64,000 nucleotides of DNA. Origin: Bisporella sp. PMI_857. Lineage: Eukaryota; Ascomycota; Leotiomycetes; Helotiales; Helotiaceae. The stretch lies in contig JAJSPD010000119.1 of the NCBI GenBank assembly GCA_021307315.1, positions 1 to 64,000 of the forward strand, in the 5' to 3' direction. Numbering within the stretch: the stretch's first letter is position 1; each line of letters starts with the position of its first letter. The notes below the pieces were generated by a model, which did no database searches, was not told the DNA's origin, and saw nothing but the letters and a program-made list of their open reading frames with translations. Below are positions 3,024-49,515 of the stretch, in pieces. The position numbers and the translations under genes are program-made.

Positions 3024-5235
3024 ATGCCTTGTATAACGGTTATACGCCTGTTACTATTTCTATCACTGTGCACATCCGATTCAGCTGCCGCTATTACGCA
3101 GTTCCAAACAGAAACCTCCACAGGCTTTGTACCACTTACCACTGGCTTCACACCAGCACCTGAATGTAGTTCTATTACAATAGTACATAGTCAACGCGAT
3201 GTTGCAGTCTACCAAGGCTGTGTCGGCTCTGATCCCAGTTGCTGCCCTCAATCTGGGCGTCTCAACAATACCTATAGTCCCGGAGTATGCCCATCAGGTT
3301 ATATATCTAAGGATGCTCATGTTGGCTTGGACCGGCTTGCTATAGATACCCTTGAATGGGAAGCAACCTGCGTTCCCTCGTAAGTTCATATCCGATCTTT
3401 AGCTAGAAGACGTGCCATCAATCCTTCCTCTTCCTTGCGCGCGTACGTAGACCTCCAAGTGACTTTGGTAGAGCTTTTACTACCTGCACCAGACCGTGGT
3501 ACAAGTTGCCCCAGCAGCCCATGCTCCCAGACACAGATTGTCCTCGGCGGTACACTAGCCAACTACCCCGTCTCACAACTCCTTTAACAGTATCGGTCTT
3601 TTATTACCACCCTTATGACTACAATCTTGATTCGGGGTCGCCCTGGCCATACCGGGTTGGCTTTAGAACTACTATGGTATTATCGGAATCCTGGCCGATC
3701 TTGATTCCTGCAACTACAACTCCTAAAGCGGTTGTTGCGACGCATTTTATTATCCGATGGAAGGACTCTGACTTCTCGTCGACTCTTTCACCTCCGGTCG
3801 TATCGGCGAGCATCTCTGGAAGCCCGCCTCCTGGATTCACGGGGGTAGACCCTATCACAACATCTACTCCATCATATTCCCAATCAGGCGTACCAGAAAA
3901 TGATGGAGTGACTACGACGAGGTCGATGTCTGGTTGCCCTACGTGCGCCACAAAATCTTCGTCTCCATTACCATCAGGCAAACTTTCCCATGGGAGTATA
4001 GTTGGCATAACCATAGGTAGTGTGGTAGGTACTGCTGGGCTTGTCTTCGGGGTACTATTCTGTTATTTTCGAAACCGAAAAGGATCGCCTAATAGCGAAA
4101 TCGAGCTACAAGACTCAGGACCAAATGTGGGGTTTTTAACATTGTACAGAGGCGAAACAGATCCAGGGCCGGTTGCCGAGTAAGCCCTCTCTCCTACCAT
4201 TTTTTCGTAATACCTTACTAATAATCTACAAAGTATTGTTTTAGTTCACGGCTTGCGAGGCCACCGCTCAAGAACGTGGACAAAAGACGGGTGTTGTTGG
4301 CCAAAAGACTTACTCCCTCAGAAACTTCCAGGAATCCGGGTCATCTCATTTGGCTACGATTCCAGTATAGCAAGATTTATAGGGCATTCATCAAGAAATA
4401 ACATAAACCAACACGCGACATGCCTGCTTGCAGACTTAATTGATATAAGGAGCGGGAATACTCAAGTTGGTCTCTCTTACTATACTATAGAATTGCACTT
4501 GAGCTAACAGGTGATGGATAGCGGCCGATAATCTTTGTGGCTCACAGCTTAGGCGGTATTGTTGTGAAAGATGTCTGTCCATTTACAACGCAATCTATTC
4601 TAAACTGACCACGCAAACAGGCCCTCCGGAAAGCGAGAGAACTCAACGAAGGTGGCCGATATCGCTCCATCTACGAAGCCACCCACAGTGTTATATTCTT
4701 AGGAACCCCTCACCATGGAAGTGCTTATGCTCGAGTCGGCAGATCAGTGGCAGATATGCTCCGTTGGTTCTGGCGCGATACAAATTCGAGCATACTCCGT
4801 TCACTAGAGTACGACTCTGAAATCCTTGAGCGAATCTCAGATGATTTCCGAAACACATTAGCCCACCGCGCCGACCGCAAGATAAAAATCTGTTCTTTCG
4901 CAGAGGAGCTGTCTATGTCATCCCTAGCAAGCGTTAGTCCATTATACGCAGCATTCGGTAATATGCTAATGTATCAGTAGCCCGTCGTTTATGCTAGATC
5001 TGCATTCATAGGCTTATCAGAAGAGATCACAGAGACGATATGGGCGCACCATAGAGATATGTGTCGGTTTAGCAATGAAGACGATCCTGGGTATCAGAGG
5101 ATTGCGAGGAGGATTATTGAGTTCGTCGCGGATGCTACATCGGGTGCCAGCTATTCTAGCTCCGTTGGAACTGAATCGGACACCTCTATAGAGAGGGTAG
5201 AAGATTCTGAGGCGCCAGATCCCGAGATACGATAG
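3024..5235 (+). CDS. Signal peptide/ectodomain/single-TM protein fused to cytosolic SesB-like alpha/beta hydrolase
   Basis: Six exons: 3024-3379, 3451-4179, 4234-4465, 4522-4572, 4621-4932 and 4981-5235. The total is 1,935 nt (644 aa), and every junction keeps frame. Residues 1-23 are a signal peptide. Residues ~24-290 are a Cys-containing ectodomain with a Ser/Thr/Pro-rich stalk. A TM helix lies at ~300-325 (VGITIGSVVGTAGLVFGVLF) followed by a basic RNRK stop-transfer. From ~362 there is a serine hydrolase of the DUF676/SesB type: the oxyanion motif VHGLRGH, the nucleophile elbow AHSLGG (Ser ~448), GTPHHGS, and a C-terminal HHRDMCRF carrying the likely catalytic His (~584). In fungal NLR-like proteins this hydrolase is the N-terminal effector domain; here it follows a TM and has no NB-ARC or NACHT. 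The fourth donor (GTCTGT) and third donor (GTTGGT) are weak, but frame and branch points (CTAAC, CTGAC) support them. The substrate is unknown. The least certain part is 3500-3640. Confidence 0.8.
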
Positions 5236-25152: not shown

Positions 25153-28100
25153 TTTGATGGTATATGAGATATACGTCAACAAAACGATGGTATATTAGAT
25201 ATTCGTTAACATGCACTGTAAAGCCTGTAATACAAGCGTTATAAGCTTAAAATCAATATCATTCTTTCTAATCATTTATTTTTCGGTTTGTATTTTATAT
25301 TTTTTTCCAGACTTTGTAACGTATTTTAAAGGCAGTACAATATCGACGAAATCCTGATTCGCAAAAAATTTCACTATTAACCTTTGAAAGCTCGCTGTCG
25401 CTATTCAGTTAATTAACTTTTTTTATTTGTATGCTTAATTTTCGATTAAAGTACTTTCTTTTATTTTTATTCTCGTTTTTTTCGCTTTTTATTTTATTCT
25501 TTTTTTCATTTTTTTTATTCTTAGATTGTAGCTATTTTTAAGCTCGTTGTCGACGTTCGCTAGCAACAAGCTAGTTCGTACAACGACAACGATTATGACT
25601 TTAATTAAAGCAGTTGCTACAGCGCGTTTGCTTTTTATTTTACGTGCTTTTGCGTACTCGTTTTAATCGAAGTCGGCCGATTGATTTTCGTGCTACAAAA
25701 AGTTTGATTAAATTATCGCGAAATAAGTTTATCGACAATACTAGTAATAACGAACGTCGATAAGTTTTGCGATATTTTTTAGCTGTAAACTAATTATTAA
25801 AATAGTCAATTGGATCAATATAAAAAATCTTTGCAGCTGTAATTGCGTAAAAACAAAGCGATTGAAACTAATAAAAATTTGTACAGTCGCAACGCTTTTT
25901 ATCGAGATTAATTACTTATTTACGACTTGTTTTTAGATTTTTAACTTGCGCAATACTATTATTTGAGAAGTAAACGCGATATTGACAAAAAACTTTTAAT
26001 TGATTTTTAAATTTGGCTATAAGTACGTCGGCGAAACTATTAGTTTTGTTTTTTTTGTACGCTTTTTAAACCACGTTTTTAAAGCTAAAAAATAAATACT
26101 ATTTAGCAATTAAAGAAAAAGCATTTAGCGATATTTGTTTTAAGTCGAATTCAATAATTTAACAATATTCGAAATATTGTAGCTAAATTGAAAATATTGC
26201 AAATAAGTTTTAGTTTACAGCTTTTTGTCGATATTAGAAAAGTAATTAAACGCGTCGATACTTAATTTTTTTATTTTTATTATTTTAGTTTGATACAATT
26301 AAAGTGTTTTTGTTTTACATACTTTTCAAAACAACGGCTTTACTTTATTACTAAATTTTTGCTGTAAGTTATTTGCAATATGTTGACAGCAATAAAAATA
26401 AATAGCGTCAAGAAATAGCTTTACGACAGCGTTTGCTATTTCTTTTTTACGATTAAAAATAAAAGTATGCTAACTTTGTAAAATAACAGAAAAAGCAAAC
26501 TTAAAATAATGTAAAAACTAAGTCTATTAGCGTTGATTTTTAACAAGTACTAATTTTTAAGCTAAAGAAACAACTTTTCCGTTAGCGTCGATTTTACAGC
26601 AAATTATTAATATTATACAATACCGAGATTTTGTATAAGTTCCATTAATAGCAAAAAACTGGCAAATATGTTTAAAAGCTTTACGGAAAAAACTTAAAGC
26701 AAAAAAAACTGCTTAAAATATTTTATTCGTTTGCGTTTAAAGTGCAGCGTAATTGTTTTCGTCGGCTTTTTTGAACTTTTTGATATAGCTAAGAAACAGC
26801 GCAAAAAATTCGGTTTCGTTACTATATAGTTTTTTCAAAACAGCTTGTTTAACGCGATATATTTAAAAATAAAAAATATTGTTAAAAAATTGAAAGCGTT
26901 TATTTGACTGAATTTGTTTAGAAGTAATATTAAGATTATTAACAATCGACGCTTAATAATAAAATATTATAAACTTTAAATTATTCGTATTTAAAACTGT
27001 GAAGTAATTTGCAAGAAAGCAAGTATAAAGTTCTAAGTAAGTTATTACTACGCTTTTTTTCTTAGAATTAACTGCTTTAATTTTGAATTTGCAAATATTC
27101 GCAGTAAAGCATACAATAAGTCCGTGTACTTTTATCCGAACTACTTTTTTATTAGAACTACTTAAAATTAAGCGATTTTCAGACTGCTACTTTTGCTATT
27201 TTTGTTTTTATTGAATTAATTCTAATTTAAATTACTTCAAACTTTGGATTTTATTTTTTTAAGCTAGTTATGTTTTAATATACCGAAAATAATATAGCTC
27301 AAGCTATAAAAAATGTTAGAAATAGCAAGTTTATTAAGCTAGCTGCTCGAAAATAAAGTATTTTTTATTTACTTTTCGAAGTCGAATTGCAAGCAAAAAA
27401 AACTATTTTATTGCAGCAGAAAATTAACAGAAGTTATTAAAAGTACAAAAAGAACACTTAGCTTTATAAGTTTTTGTTTAAAAAGTTTTAAAAGTGCTTT
27501 TAACTTATGCGCAAATCAAACAGTTTGCTTAGCGCTTTTTAGACTTTAAAAAAAATAGCAAATTACTAGAAAAACGCTAAATGTAAGCTTTTTTACGACG
27601 CAACTTTATTTTTAAAACTTAAAAGTTTCGTAATATTGATTTTTAGCGTGTTAATAGAGCTACTATTTTTATAATCAAGTTTTAGTTTCAGCTTTTTTTT
27701 TTCTTTAAATTTAAGCTATTTCGCCCGAAAATCGGTGAAATATAAATAAATCCGGTATTATAAAAAGTTATAAAGCAAATAGGCTAATAGTCGAAAGTGC
27801 TAAAAAGCGTTTTATTTAAAAGAAACAGTTTAGATTTTGTGTTTAGATATTATTTATTAAGTGTGTTTTAGCAAGTAAAAAAGTATTTACTTTGTTAGTA
27901 ATTTTCAAAAAAAAAAAAACAGTTTAACAACAATAGTTTCTTATAAACTTTACTTTGTACAAAAGCTAGCAGTTTACAGCTACCGAAAATACTTGGACTT
28001 TAAATAATATAGCTGTGAAATAGCTTTAGAAAGTGTTTTTTTTTAAACATTTATTTTAAAGCTTAAACTTTTTATTTTAAATAGCTATAAAGTTATAAAA

Positions 28101-29290
28101 CTACTGAATTTATGTATTTGTGCTACTAGTATAATATATATTTTTTATTTTTACTTTTACATACTTTTCACGTTTTTCAACTTTTGGATTTATTAGTTTT
28201 TTTTTTTTTAAAAGTTACTACCGGAAAAAAGTTGAATATTTGACTTTTTTAACAAATTCTAGCTTAATTAGAAAACAGAATTTTTTAGTTTGCTACTAGA
28301 AAGCTAAAAAAAAAGCTTTAGCTGCTAAAATTATTAAAAATAAGTAAAAAACAATTGGTTTTTAGCTAAAATCTATAGCAAAACTACTTATAAGCTTTTT
28401 ATTTTTAGAAAATAGTAATATAGCTAAAAAAACTTTTATATATATTTTACAAGTTTTACAGAACTTAATTGAAAGTTTTACAGTTAATTCATTTCAATTT
28501 ATATAGTTTATACTTAAAAAATCGACTAAAATAAAAGTTTAAACAGCTAAGTTTTAAAAGCTTTAAAACCAAAGTTATTTAACACAAAAGTTTTTATTTC
28601 GGAAAATTATAAAAAGTTTTGAAAAGTAAAAAAGTGTTTTAGCAAATTATAAACTTAGAATTCACTCTTTAAAAGTTTAATTAAAGAAAACTAAGCCTAA
28701 AAAACGGAAAAAGGTTAAAACTAGCCCAAATTCCAAGTTTGCAAATATTGAAGCTATTTACAAAGCGCAAATAGCAGCTGACGGGGCTAGAATTAAAAAA
28801 AAAAAAAAGAAATAGCTAGTTTATTTGATTTTACTTTAAATTGTATTGAAATTGAGTAGTTATTTAATTATAATTATTTAAATGTAGGCAATAGTCTGAA
28901 TATCGCTTAATTTTAGGTAGTTCTGATAAAAAAGTAGTTCGGATAAAGGTGCACGGACTTATTAAAGCGTTTTTATCGGAATAAGTAGCTTTTTATGATT
29001 CAAAATTATTTGCAACAAAATCTTTTATTGCTTTTTTGCTAACGTAATATTAAAGAAAGTATTACCGACTTGAAGCGTTATAGCTATAATAAAGTTGCAA
29101 AAGAAAAATAATCGACAAAATACGAATATTTGTTGTGCGTTAAGTGCTTTAGTTTCTTAGCGCAACGCACAGGTTTTTTAGATATCTACTAACAAAACGA
29201 TAGTATATGAGATATATTAGTGTTTCTTATATACTATCGTTTTGTCATTAGGTATCTGAAATACCACTGTTTTGTGCCAAAAGACAAATG

Positions 29291-29373
29291 GTGGTATATG
29301 AGATATTCGTCAAAAAAAGTGTGGTATATGAGATATTTATCAACAAAACGATGGTATTTGAGATATTTGCCGT
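29291..29373 (-). repeat. Right terminal inverted repeat of the 4.3-kb element
   Basis: 83 bp, the exact reverse complement of 25070-25152. It is followed by TAATTTA at 29374-29380, the right copy of the target duplication. Confidence 0.92.
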
Positions 29374-29471
29374 TAATTTAAAGCGTCACCATGTTAGAAA
29401 CACCGGACTAATTCTATCACTGATTCATCTTACAATACACTCATTCTATGCCAAAGTAAAATTTCTCTCAT

Positions 29472-31424
29472 TCACAATGAAGCTCCCCACCTGGTCAACT
29501 CCTTTTCCTTCATTGCTGCCTGCAATCGATGTTGCCGTATATCTCTTACGACATCATAAAATGCATTTTCGTTGATATGGGACTCCGTTGAAACCTCCAC
29601 AAATTTACAACCTAATTTTTTCGCTAGTGCCTGCCCTTCTTCCGTCGACACTTCACGTTCATTCGAGCGATGACAATTATTGCCAAACAACTTGATAGGG
29701 CAGAACGGAGGACTAACTGTCGTGAGATTAGAGCCTGGGTAATTTATCAAATTTGCCCTCTTCTTTACTCTCTGGATTTGATCGTGGAATCGGGGAATTT
29801 GGACAAAGGAAAGCCGGCTTGTGATTGAGTAAACCAAAACAAAGCCGTGCCCCTCCCTGATCCACTTGCCTCGCAGGGCCGTGGCCCCCTCTTGACCCGC
29901 CGTATCTAGAACTCCTAGAACGCAGGCATGTTGACCGATGACCACTCTTTGTAGATATGAAGGCTCCTCACTCGTCGGCTCGTATGAGTAAATAGAGTGC
30001 TGGAGAGTCAACTGGAGCGTATGTTAGCACGTCTTTCCGCCATTTATTAAAGTAATTCACCTGCTTAGTAAATGCTGACCTTTCTACATCATTGTCTCCT
30101 AGAACGGCCAATCTATATAATGGTAGTTTTTCTTCGATAGGCATAGGCTTGGAGGAAGATGAAACGGCTTTGTTAGAAGATTCAGCAGCTAGACGTTCTG
30201 TCACCACACTGACGTATGGGCCAAGGCTGTCCCGAATCATTGGTGTCGAAGCGAGGACAAGGCTATTAGAATTCCTACTCAGGCTGAGTGGGGAAAAGAG
30301 GCGCGAACGAGGTTTCTTAGACTTCTTCGGCGATTGGAGTTGGATTATCGAGTCTAAAGTGGTTTCGGAAGCTGTGTCGGGCAGGATATCTCTCGTATGC
30401 GTCTCTTTCGTAGCCTGGGTTGTCATCTGCACATCAGCTTCGGCAGATTGGCTTGGCATATAGTATTCCTTATTCGATAACTCATCCACGTACAGTGGTA
30501 ATGCTACTGCTGAGATCATAGAAATCTCTGATAAAGTCAACCCAGAGAATATCGACCACGCATGGGTACGAACTTCAGAACTGGTGAACGAAACATCCGA
30601 TTCGTACAACTCAGTTCTTTTGTACACTCGAGAGGCTCCGAGATCTACTTGAAAATTGGTCTGAGAGGCAAATTCATCAAGGCTATCTACTATCATAGAG
30701 GATCTCCCAATGCCGAGTTTCATTAAGGTGCCTTCTTCAGATCGGATATGGCCCTCGACCTCTGACTTATCCTCTCCATGCTCACTCAAGGTACCGTTTC
30801 GAAAACAAGTCGTCATTATACTTTGGGATTCAAACTTATCTTCAATTCTCTGTAGGCGTCGCGAAACGTCGTTATTGCTTCTCAGAAGTTCTTCAACAAG
30901 ATTCTGTAAGCTCTCTCGAGACTGTGCTGCTTCCAGATCTGACTCGCTAGCATGTGTGTCAGTTACTACAAACAAATGGAATCTCTGGACGCTCACCATT
31001 GTATAATATTCAGCATGAGAGACAAGGAAGATTTGTCGCGTTCTAGTCTAAGCATGATACTGGCAGTGGTGCCTTCCTCCCAGATGTACATAAGACGTGT
31101 TTTGACCGACATCCCGTCATCTCCTGCAATTGACTTGACCAGAGTATCGAGCTCCGAGAAGGTTCGCACAGCCTCAGTCAACGTCGCAACGAGATGGTCA
31201 ATTCGGATCATGGATATGCGACCTCTGGGTGCGGAGTTCAGTTCAAGAAGAAAGCTTTGTACCGCTGAAAGACATATCTCGAGCTCCTTGACTTGAGATA
31301 GCATCTGGTCCAACAATCTTGGCACCTCAACGATGCTCTTCTTCACCACTGAGAGCATAGAGACGACCTTCCCCGCAGCGGTTAAGAGGCCTGCCACGGA
31401 CGCCATGACGCTTAACGGGTCCAT
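29472..31424 (-). CDS. Helo-like N-terminal domain fused to degenerate Ras-type GTPase
   Basis: Three exons on the minus strand: 31424-30997, 30946-30061 and 30011-29472 (1,854 nt, 617 aa). Residues 1-~142 match the fungal Helo-like/STAND N-terminal domain: MDPLSVMASVAGLLTAAGKV, then a four-helix pattern ending SSLSLMLNIIQC. Helo-type domains are membrane-active death effectors in fungal incompatibility proteins. A linker (~150-415) is Ser-rich with a conserved-looking block VSFTSSEVRTHAWSIFSGL. Residues ~419-600 follow a Ras fold in order, but the motifs are damaged: the P-loop reads GDNDVERSA instead of GxxxxGK[ST], G3 is kept (DTAGQEG, ~474), and G4 reads NNCHR instead of NKxD. GTP binding is therefore unlikely. 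Start: M6 of the frame (MDPLS) is chosen over a Met 15 nt upstream. Frame and splicing are otherwise intact. Confidence 0.8.
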
Positions 31425-32398
31425 AATGATTGGCCACACAGCACGCTATCTTGCTTTCACGACCATTGAGAGAGAAATTGCGGCGTTAGAAAGCACTGGA
31501 TATTTACGTGCGGAAAATTCGATCCTCGAAAAGGGTGAAATTTCTTTTTCTGCAAAGCCTGACAGCCCCAGGAGTCAGCCTTGCACCAGACTAAGTCCTT
31601 GACTGCAGGAGCAACCAACAACATGTCGGACGTAATGGGTGAAGCGAAATGAGGTTTAAAACGTGGCGTACAAGGATTTATTTTTCAGCCGCAACACCAT
31701 TTCAAAACCGTATTTTTTTAAAGGGTCGCTGGGGATTATGAGATATATCGGTGGTATAATCAACTTTATATCACATTTAAAGAACTATTACTACCCAAAA
31801 TTCTTAAGATATACAGTCATTGTAAACCTACCTTAGCTAACATAAAGCCTGGATAGGATAAGGTTACTATTTTAGAGTTTGAAGCCTCTTGCTACATCAA
31901 CTTAAAACTCGATCTGTTGTTTAGAAAGCGCGCTTTATAACAGGTTAGTTTTGCGCAAATACTCAAAACAAATAACTTTAAAAATTGTACCCTGTAATGT
32001 GACAAGTCTTTTGATACACCGAGCCAGTGAGTAGGCTTATACTCTACTTGAAGGTATAATCAATACACTTACTAGAATGTGACAATGCTTTTTTCAAACA
32101 GAATATGGCTCCTTTTTATATACGCAGGAAATAATGCACGTTTCGAGCAAAGCTATCACCACATTGCAGACCAGTCAGGGACTAAGTCTCCTAGGACATT
32201 GTGTGCTTGGACCCGAGGTATATGACCACATTTTCAATGTCCGTTGTTGCAAGGAGACAAGATCTCAAGACAGTTGGCAAGGCATGAATTGTAAGTTCTC
32301 AAGCGGACCCAGTAGTGGTACGCATGCTTATGGGAGAGAACGTGTACACGGCAGGAGCGTCCCTGCGGTTGCGATGTTCGAGGTCAATCTTCCAGCAA
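31425..32398. other. Intergenic, no gene seen
   Basis: Promoter side of the Helo/Ras gene, then AT-rich sequence (31680-32110). A plus-strand frame at 32134-32424 has no recognisable features. Confidence 0.45.
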
Positions 32399-47000: not shown

Positions 47001-49515
47001 ACCAGCTTTGCAGGTCTGTGTTGCATTACATAATTAAACTCATTAGAGACTTCCTGAGATTTTGGATTAAGGAGTTGCGGGTAGCTTTTGACACCAGCAA
47101 AAGCGCTTAACCACTGTTCCCACGACTTTCCATAACAATTCACCTCGACAGGAGCTCCCTTAAGGTATGCCGCATTGAGAAAGTGAACTTTAAGACCTGG
47201 AGCTTTGGTATTCTCTGTGAGAGATGGTTTAAAAAGTTTATGGGCTCCGTACTGCTCTTCCTCTTGCTGAAAGTAGATGTACTCCATGCTATCAGTACCA
47301 TTGCAACTCACTGGGCGTCCTTCTTGGTCCCTGAGAAATATTATCTCCTTCGTGACTGGGTGATCTTCAGAAAGGCTGAAGTAAAGATAATGGAGGTGGC
47401 ATATACTATTTTCTAGTGATGGCCTCGGAGGACTCCAAACGCTGGTGAAAGGCCCAACGTATTTCAGCATAATCCGGGATATTATGTCACTGCGATCGGC
47501 AGTTGTGACTCCTAATTCCAGAAAAAGGTTCCTTCTAGCAGTACTCAGAATGGCAGATGGTTGAACAAGATTAATTCCAAGATCTGGGGGGATTGGAACA
47601 TTCACGGTATTAGGTAGGAATACCGCCGAAGTTGTTCCAGAGACCCATTTGTTATCTTGTAAGGGAATTAATTCCAGACTTTTTAAAGACTTAACAACTC
47701 CTTTGGTAGCTTTTCTCATTGTGATTAAGAGCAAGTTTGCAGCTCGTGCGTGCCAATCTCCGTCTGTGGTGGTGGCCATCATCTTTGAGTCTGCTCTTCG
47801 AAGATCTGATTGAACCCTCTCAACTAGAAATGAGTAGCTCCTCCCTCTGACTCCAAGGGCCCTGAGAGTCTCAATGTCTCTGAACTCATAAAATTTGGAT
47901 AAATATTCTTGTTTATCCGAATCCTTAAACAAAGGCTCGCCGTACCTGTCTTTAAAGTCAGGTGGTACACGGTAAAGATGACCAGGCAAGCAGAGAGGAG
48001 CTCCGCTCCATGGCCGCAGACAAGGGGTGGCGCTCAAGAGAGAAAGTATTTTGGGTCGGAGGGTTCTCCAAAACTCATCGGAGATTGAGTCGCTGGGCAG
48101 GTAACGCATCCATTGGTATTGAAGAGAAAAATGGTCGCAAAATTTAAGTACTGCTTCTCGAAATGTTTCTGCTACATGGGAAAGCAGACATTCATTCCTC
48201 GCAGAGTGGAAGACGTCCTCACGACTCGCCTGGGTAATAAAGTCCGACTGAATTATAAACTATTTTGTATACACCATTAGAATAGATCATCAAATAAATG
48301 ATGTGGATGGAAGTCCAAAAAGCCAGAATTCTTATTAACATGTCGTCAAATGATAAAGTACATAAATCAAAATAATTTCAACATACCGTAAATCCAGCAA
48401 GGCGGAGAGGCAGAAAGGCAAATACATGCTGTTGCTCGATAAGGGCATCGCCTTCCTCGTCTATGGGAAACGCTAGGACGACGGTTGCTTGGTTGGTGTT
48501 TTTGCGAGTCTCATCAGGTGGTAAATTATCGACGTTTTTCCTCACCACAAAGAAATTTAGGGCCTTTTCATTTACCTCTCTATTGAATGTAGTGGTCTTG
48601 ACAATAGTTTCCAGATATTCACCGACTTCGTCGCCAGAATGGCTGTATTTTATCCGGGTTGCGTGTCCATGTTCCGGATATATGTTAATTTCCAGCACAT
48701 CAAGCTTGACGAGGAAGAGCAATAAAGTGTGAGGAAGATTAAGCAAATCTTGAACTCGCTGTTCAAAGGTCGATGGGTTAAGAAGTGTTAAGGTAATCCT
48801 CGTACGTACGCCTTCTGGGAGGTCATTGTACTCCTCATCGATTGGAGTTACCATCCCAAGCCCATCGTCACCCCAACTCTCAATGTCTCCTTCTTCAAGT
48901 GGAGTCCCCGTTCCAAGTTCACCATCACGGGAGCCTCTTATATGTTCAAAGGAAAATGAAAATGGACCTGATTGAATGTGGACCTTTTTACTAACTTTGA
49001 AGACAGACTTGAACCCAATGCCTTTCTCGCCAATATATCCCTGGGCAGTTTTTGTGCTCTCTCCCACACTGCAAATCGCCTTGACATCCTCTTCAACGAA
49101 TCCATCTTCGTTAGAGTCGAGTACAATTCTGTCTGGGTAGATGCTGAAGCTGAGATAGAGGCTTTCCCCTGCCGCTTGTGCTTGATAATACTTGTTGTCT
49201 TCAGCATTTTGGATTAACTCATACACAAATCGTGTATCTTTAGAATATAGATTGGTTGCAAGTCTGCGAGAAGAAGTCAGCAAGAAACTCCTCCTAAAAT
49301 CATCTCTCTATGAAAATGAAGATTTACGTTTTCGTCGCAGCGCCAAGTTTGCGACGGACATTTTTTAACGCTCTCAAAGTTGCAGGTGGAGATGCTGCCC
49401 GATCCTCAGGAGAGATCCACCCATTGTCTTCTCTTATCCTACTGACTATCTCACGAGCTTCTTGCCGGGAAATCATGGTAAAACAGTCGAGTCCGAGTTC
49501 CACTTCAAGCTTCAA
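44024..49515 (-). CDS. NO VEIN-like protein: GHKL ATPase plus C-terminal DUF3883
   Basis: Eight exons on the minus strand: 49515-49328, 49263-48387, 48259-46578, 46532-46209, 46151-45549, 45474-44625, 44567-44265 and 44212-44024. The total is 5,016 nt (1,671 aa), and all phases agree. The N-terminus has a helical leader (ISRQEAREIVSRIREDNGW), then a Hsp90/sacsin-type GHKL ATPase: N-box YELIQNAEDNKY (~78-87), G1-like LDSNEDGF, and G2 box GYIGEKGIGFKSVFK (~138-152). The middle is a long sacsin/NOV-like region. The C-terminus (~1500-1610) has DUF3883: GAAGELL, ETADITYND, PKYYLEVKTTT (~1588-1592, a PD-(D/E)xK-like E-x-K) and FYMSGSQYNR. Plant NO VEIN has this pairing. Fungal members are unstudied; a role in protein remodelling or nucleic-acid defence is inference. 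The start could also be the Met at 49476. Confidence 0.88.

Follow-up and report, generated by a model that had tools for sequence, protein, structure and literature searches.

SesB proteins and fungal surface sensors

Wall-integrity sensors of the WSC/Mid2 type consist of a leader, a Cys-rich head, a stalk rich in Ser, Thr and Pro (S/T/P), one transmembrane (TM) segment and a cytosolic part. SesB domains, in turn, are common as effectors of fungal NOD-like receptors (NLRs). In the available parts of two sources, the lipases predicted in SesB-like domains might alter the plasma membrane upon contact with non-self, and the domains have an indirect link to regulated cell death (PMC4986451, PMC9815663), and 12 SesB NLR genes and 24 stand-alone SesB genes are given in the available part of a third (PMC4835503). 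Seven papers (PMC9815663, PMC3321046, PMC4986451, PMC4835503, PMC12881547, PMC12258605, PMC3689799) handle SesB, in the parts available, as an NLR N-terminal domain or as a stand-alone protein, and these parts make no mention of a TM-anchored SesB; the word "transmembrane" is absent from the main text of five of them (PMC9815663, PMC3321046, PMC4986451, PMC12258605, PMC3689799). The gene described here, B0O99DRAFT_50649, carries this domain C-terminal to an ectodomain and a TM segment. It lies at positions 3024-5235 of the window, the 64,000-nucleotide stretch at the start of contig JAJSPD010000119.1 of Bisporella sp. PMI_857 (Leotiomycetes, Helotiales; assembly of 55.6 Mb).

Compared with the SesB of fungal NLR/STAND (signal transduction ATPases with numerous domains) proteins, the domain is homologous, with about 30-43% identity to the NLR matches and the same Ser-Glu-His positions, which are also those of a stand-alone SesB of Nectria haematococca; however, it stands here behind a TM segment and an ectodomain, and the NACHT/NB-ARC domain and repeats of NLR/STAND proteins are absent. 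The leader, Cys-rich head, S/T-rich stalk and single TM segment are those of WSC/Mid2 sensors, whereas the WSC domain is lacking and a hydrolase replaces the short signalling tail. The likeness to plant and animal surface pattern-recognition receptors is one of layout (outside domain, one TM segment, inside effector or signalling domain), the sequences being unrelated, with no LRR (leucine-rich repeat), kinase or TIR match at E ≤ 1. The effector domain is known, its setting is conserved and resembles that of a membrane receptor, and no earlier description of a TM-anchored SesB protein was found in the literature searched, a search covering few subscription journals.

Gene structure and domain layout

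The deposited protein (P0001, 637 aa), already in the databases as a hypothetical protein, equals the joined exons with zero differences, and the six exons give a coding sequence of 1914 nt, including the stop, without an internal stop. The features, all on the forward strand, are as follows.

3024-3379, 3472-4179, 4234-4465, 4522-4572, 4621-4932, 4981-5235 (+): whole coding span, 637 aa, identical to P0001
3024-3095 (+): signal-peptide-like leader, residues 1-24, hydropathy maximum 1.67
3096-3781, coding 3096-3379 and 3472-3781 (+): ectodomain, residues 25-222, eight conserved Cys
3782-3988 (+): Ser/Thr/Pro-rich stalk, residues 223-291; 53% S, T or P over residues 223-292
3989-4081 (+): TM helix, residues 292-322 as modelled, hydropathy 2.08
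4130-5136 (+): SesB-type alpha/beta hydrolase, residues 339-605, exons 2-6, from Pfam, homologues, tree and model
4546-4548 (+): codon of the predicted nucleophile S441 (AHSLGG), Ser in 135 of 137 aligned SesB domains
4903-4905 (+): codon of the predicted acid E544, Glu in 135 of 137, at the end of modelled strand 538-544
5050-5052 (+): codon of the predicted catalytic H577 (HHRDM), His in 136 of 137, after modelled strand 569-573
3380-3471 (+): intron 1, as in the deposited model, aligning gap-free with P0066 and P0068
4180-4233 (+): intron 2, GTAAGC...AAAG, phase 2, splitting an Asp codon and containing the in-frame TAA at 4181-4183; same intron in L011, L012 and L026
4466-4521 (+): intron 3, from the joining of exons to P0001
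4573-4620 (+): intron 4, from the joining of exons to P0001
4933-4980 (+): intron 5, from the joining of exons to P0001

An alternative acceptor for intron 1 (intron 3380-3450, adding seven residues to the protein) was dropped, because the deposited acceptor at 3471 aligns gap-free to P0066 and P0068, two ectodomain relatives described below.

Since the TAA at 4181-4183 is in frame, the region could in principle hold an ectodomain-TM gene stopping there and a separate SesB gene, falsely merged. This is highly improbable, and the artefact was rejected on the exact match to the deposited model, the shared intron and the conservation of the join in proteins from other fungi. The SesB domain begins before intron 2: its opening residues (GFLTLYRGETDPGPVAD) are encoded mostly by the TM exon, where GFLTLYRGETDPGPVA and part of the following Asp codon sit. 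Three of the six other loci of the same genome with a clean SesB start (L011, L012 and L026) have an intron at exactly this position, in phase 2 and cutting the Asp codon ahead of the VHG motif, and joining across it yields a like segment; in L010, L014 and L016 the coding sequence is continuous across it. Because three loci share its place and phase, intron 2 is taken as an old SesB intron with the TAA inside it. Also counting against two genes is the metagenomic open reading frame (ORF) P0065, which has the second half of the ectodomain, the stalk, the TM segment and the first SesB residues and ends in PIAE; this end is exactly that of the intron 2 donor in an unspliced reading, and P0065 is apparently unspliced. 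The sequence-only reading had put forward a single gene with an intron at 4180-4233 and a TAA at its start; both elements are present as given, and the intron lies where other SesB genes have theirs. The gene and its ectodomain-TM-SesB fusion are confirmed as real at the level of sequence.

The leader was judged by hydropathy, and the TM segment by Kyte-Doolittle hydropathy (maximum 2.08, the only one besides the leader) together with an AlphaFold2 model. The protein is predicted to be a type I single-pass membrane protein, which would place the N-terminus outside and the C-terminus inside.

SesB hydrolase domain

The SesB domain is the last of the protein, with a short tail after residue 605. 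Pfam gives Abhydrolase_6 (PF12697, E 9.4e-6) and DUF676 (PF05057, E 1.3e-5) above the cut-off, and five further families at E ≤ 1, all below it; none of the NACHT, NB-ARC, repeat, kinase, LRR, TIR and WSC families is found at E ≤ 1 over the whole protein. The best NLR-type matches of the protein search run from E 7.9e-49 down, and by this similarity to NLR SesB domains and by Pfam the domain is assigned as a SesB-like hydrolase, a predicted lipase/esterase-like enzyme. In the alignment the Ser-Glu-His set appears intact in all four proteins with the ectodomain-TM-SesB order. The hydrolase identity claimed from sequence alone is borne out by the NLR-type matches, Pfam and the tree, the Ser of AHSLGG and the His of HHRDM named there are S441 and H577, to which E544 is added as the acid position, and the stated absence of an NB-ARC/NACHT or repeat sensor holds in Pfam. 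A structure model, also suggested there, gave a TM helix at 292-322 and the catalytic residues on hydrolase strands, but an ectodomain of low confidence.

Other searches were less specific. The single protein has no match in the PDB at E ≤ 0.1, whereas an A1 profile gave four weak matches, the best being the Bacillus licheniformis lipase BlEst2 (6wpy, 6wpx; E 0.025), with about 20% identity and no comparable ectodomain-TM part seen in the match. Fold searches covered the hydrolase part, the ectodomain being left out because its models had low confidence. NCBIfam gave no match, and PADLOC matched a single model, PDLC02918, across the hydrolase (E 2.1e-8 in P0001, 2e-10 in P0068). A six-frame DUF676 search of the genome did not list the gene at 3024-5235, so that the DUF676 label alone would miss it.

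Relatives with the same layout and their conservation

The relatives P0001-P0158 come from three protein searches, one of which listed the best 120 of 445 matches; scoring in two of the three was limited to the 7995 and 7991 candidates with the most words in common. P0002 and P0003 were missing from the list of one search despite lengths that it covered. The family probably has more members than those found. Among the matches listed, four proteins have the ectodomain-TM-SesB order: P0001; P0068 (Naviculisporaceae sp. PSN 640, 654 aa, complete); and the metagenomic P0002 and P0003 (Xylariaceae sp. AK1471, Sordariomycetes), whose models are without the first half of the ectodomain. The layout read from the sequence, for which other proteins with a TM segment followed by SesB had been suggested as a check, is thus found in three more, from Sordariales, Xylariales and a metagenome; this recurrence of the order across independent genomes makes it more than chance. 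P0067 is a partial ectodomain.

A recognisable SesB landmark is present in 146 of the 158 listed proteins, and 32 of these 146 have at least 40 residues before it; a TM-like segment upstream is seen in the same four of the 32 (P0001, P0068, P0002, P0003), a fraction that is no census, because the set was retrieved with B0O99DRAFT_50649 as the query. P0153 and P0137, two borderline cases, were read individually, and neither resembles a TM protein. In P0137 and P0141, SesB is C-terminal to ankyrin repeats and to a Ras/Arf-like GTPase at the N-terminus, so SesB also occurs without an NLR in layouts that have a different type of switch.

The SesB profile was matched by 155 of the 158 proteins, with a nearly full domain in 137. 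A tree of 68 rows (8 chosen and 60 random from the remainder) was built by a quick method with the Shimodaira-Hasegawa-like approximate likelihood ratio test (SH-aLRT) and no bootstrap. One clade (SH-aLRT 99) unites the hydrolases of the four members with the fragments P0069, P0070 and P0071; no single branch sets the four members apart, because fragments are interspersed with them. One origin of the fusion is allowed by this tree, though not strictly proved.

Between P0001 and P0068, identity is 68% in the first half of the ectodomain (residues 40-135), 47% in the second half, 52% in SesB, 31% in the stalk, 23% in the TM segment and 4% in the tail, so conservation is higher in the first half of the ectodomain than in the hydrolase. 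Eight ectodomain Cys are retained in the three complete ectodomains (3/3). From this identity and the kept Cys, the outside part is the most constrained. Rather than an arms race, such conservation suggests a structural role, or else a wall component or conserved ligand.

SesB and ectodomain copies in the genome

The whole protein matches 58 places in its own genome, three being the gene itself and one (C2) the stalk and TM segment only; the others match the hydrolase part and include exons that belong to one and the same gene. Read as DNA, the C2 place looks like a different S/T-stalk TM protein. The ectodomain has no second copy: its query gave six places at E ≤ 1, two being the gene itself and four, the C2 place among them, weak (E 3.5e-4 to 0.024) and confined to query residues 191-333. 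P0068, as an independent query, gave an ectodomain match in the gene at 3024-5235 only.

A clean SesB start was found at seven places, the window's included, in 31 partly overlapping loci (L007-L036 and L042). None of the six others (L010, L011, L012, L014, L016 and L026) has a TM-like segment in its own ORF or in ORFs of at least 60 residues within 900 bases upstream, a test blind to a TM segment in an exon shorter than 60 aa or beyond that distance. In three of the six the intron place is that of B0O99DRAFT_50649. Two pairs of SesB places (C241:706128 with C263:471766, and C241:974396 with C263:203879) score identically but are oppositely oriented, which would fit a large duplication or a redundant assembly.

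Proposed function and alternatives

The best reading, given about an even chance, is that of a wall-sensor-like surface protein with a cytosolic SesB effector, sensor and effector in one. Raised on its stalk, the ectodomain would be exposed at the cell surface in the manner of WSC/Mid2-type sensors, and would bind a wall component or a conserved molecule from outside; this contact, or clustering, may then switch on the lipase/esterase-like domain, or concentrate it, at the inner membrane face, where hydrolysis of a lipid or other ester would alter growth or set off defence or death. One protein would serve as both sensor and effector, with no NLR switch. The receptor interpretation is plausible; outside sensing and gating are predictions, as is any immune role, including the one-component immune receptor suggested in the sequence-only reading. 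The predicted topology is in keeping with the basic residues found after the TM segment in three members, where the net charge over 15 residues is +3 in P0002, +4 in P0003 and +7 in P0068. A broader and more tentative proposal is that these proteins form a fungal family of surface receptors, with a conserved ectodomain, one TM segment and an NLR-type (SesB) effector enzyme, that would be a direct counterpart of plant and animal surface pattern-recognition receptors, needing neither kinase nor NLR.

Several observations weigh against the sensor-effector reading. Pfam recognises no domain in the ectodomain, for which there is no usable model either, its confidence being low in the full-length AlphaFold2 model and for P0066 alone (predicted local distance difference test, pLDDT, 37). 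N-glycosylation sequons are few (one in the ectodomain of P0001, none in P0066 and none in that of P0068). P0001 has RNRK after the TM segment, yet its net charge there is 0 (15 residues), with +2 before it, so its topology is not plain by charge alone. P0066 (Rhypophila sp. PSN 637, Sordariales), whose two ectodomain halves share 84-87% identity with those of P0068, has an ectodomain only, its model ending in the stalk without TM segment and SesB; it is either a truncated model or a form without TM segment and hydrolase. The strong conservation of the ectodomain also appears unlike a polymorphic allorecognition or rapidly changing non-self receptor and so speaks against a receptor of that kind, although a cell-wall sensor, or a receptor whose ligand is a conserved molecule, is compatible with it.

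A substantial minority of the probability goes to the main rival, a constitutive membrane-tethered lipid esterase in which the ectodomain and stalk only position the enzyme at the surface membrane or wall contacts, with no transmembrane signal. It agrees with the conserved ectodomain and intact triad, and a plain tether would be expected to have a poorly conserved TM segment and juxtamembrane region, as is the case between members (8-50% and 20-55% identity, respectively); that conservation peaks in the first half of the ectodomain is not readily accounted for by a tether alone, and the evidence does not separate this rival well from a receptor. A wall/adhesion sensor or allorecognition partner, with SesB as a scaffold or partner-binding part and hydrolysis dispensable, is unlikely. 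The leader, Cys-rich head, S/T/P stalk and single TM segment recall the WSC/Mid2 layout, but the catalytic set is intact in all four members, and no WSC family is found by Pfam at E ≤ 1 in the P0001-equivalent, P0068, P0066, P0002, P0003 or P0065.

Fungal surface perception of bacteria and other outside cues is poorly known. In the available parts of two sources, a genome survey of 101 species finds no LRR receptors in fungi (PMC2939053), and the receptors for Fusarium responses to bacterial molecules are still sought (PMC4889655). As a candidate surface receptor of fungi, the conserved ectodomain-TM-SesB protein is concrete and testable, and it also offers a route to the study of SesB activity with a built-in membrane address.

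Other features of the window

A sacsin-domain ORF (PF25794, E 3.4e-9) lies at 48381-49307 (-), and after it, as far as 44595, come long ORFs without a Pfam match. Within 29475-31445, a Ras-family ORF at 29475-30023 (-; PF00071) stands beside an ORF at 30996-31445 (-) that begins MDPLSVMASVAGLLTAAGKVVSML and has no Pfam match; its start is presumed here to recall the N-terminus of fungal NLR-type or SesA-like proteins. A stretch at about 26000-30000 is AT-rich, with G+C of 0.245 and 0.305 in 2-kb steps versus 0.37-0.53 in most of the window.
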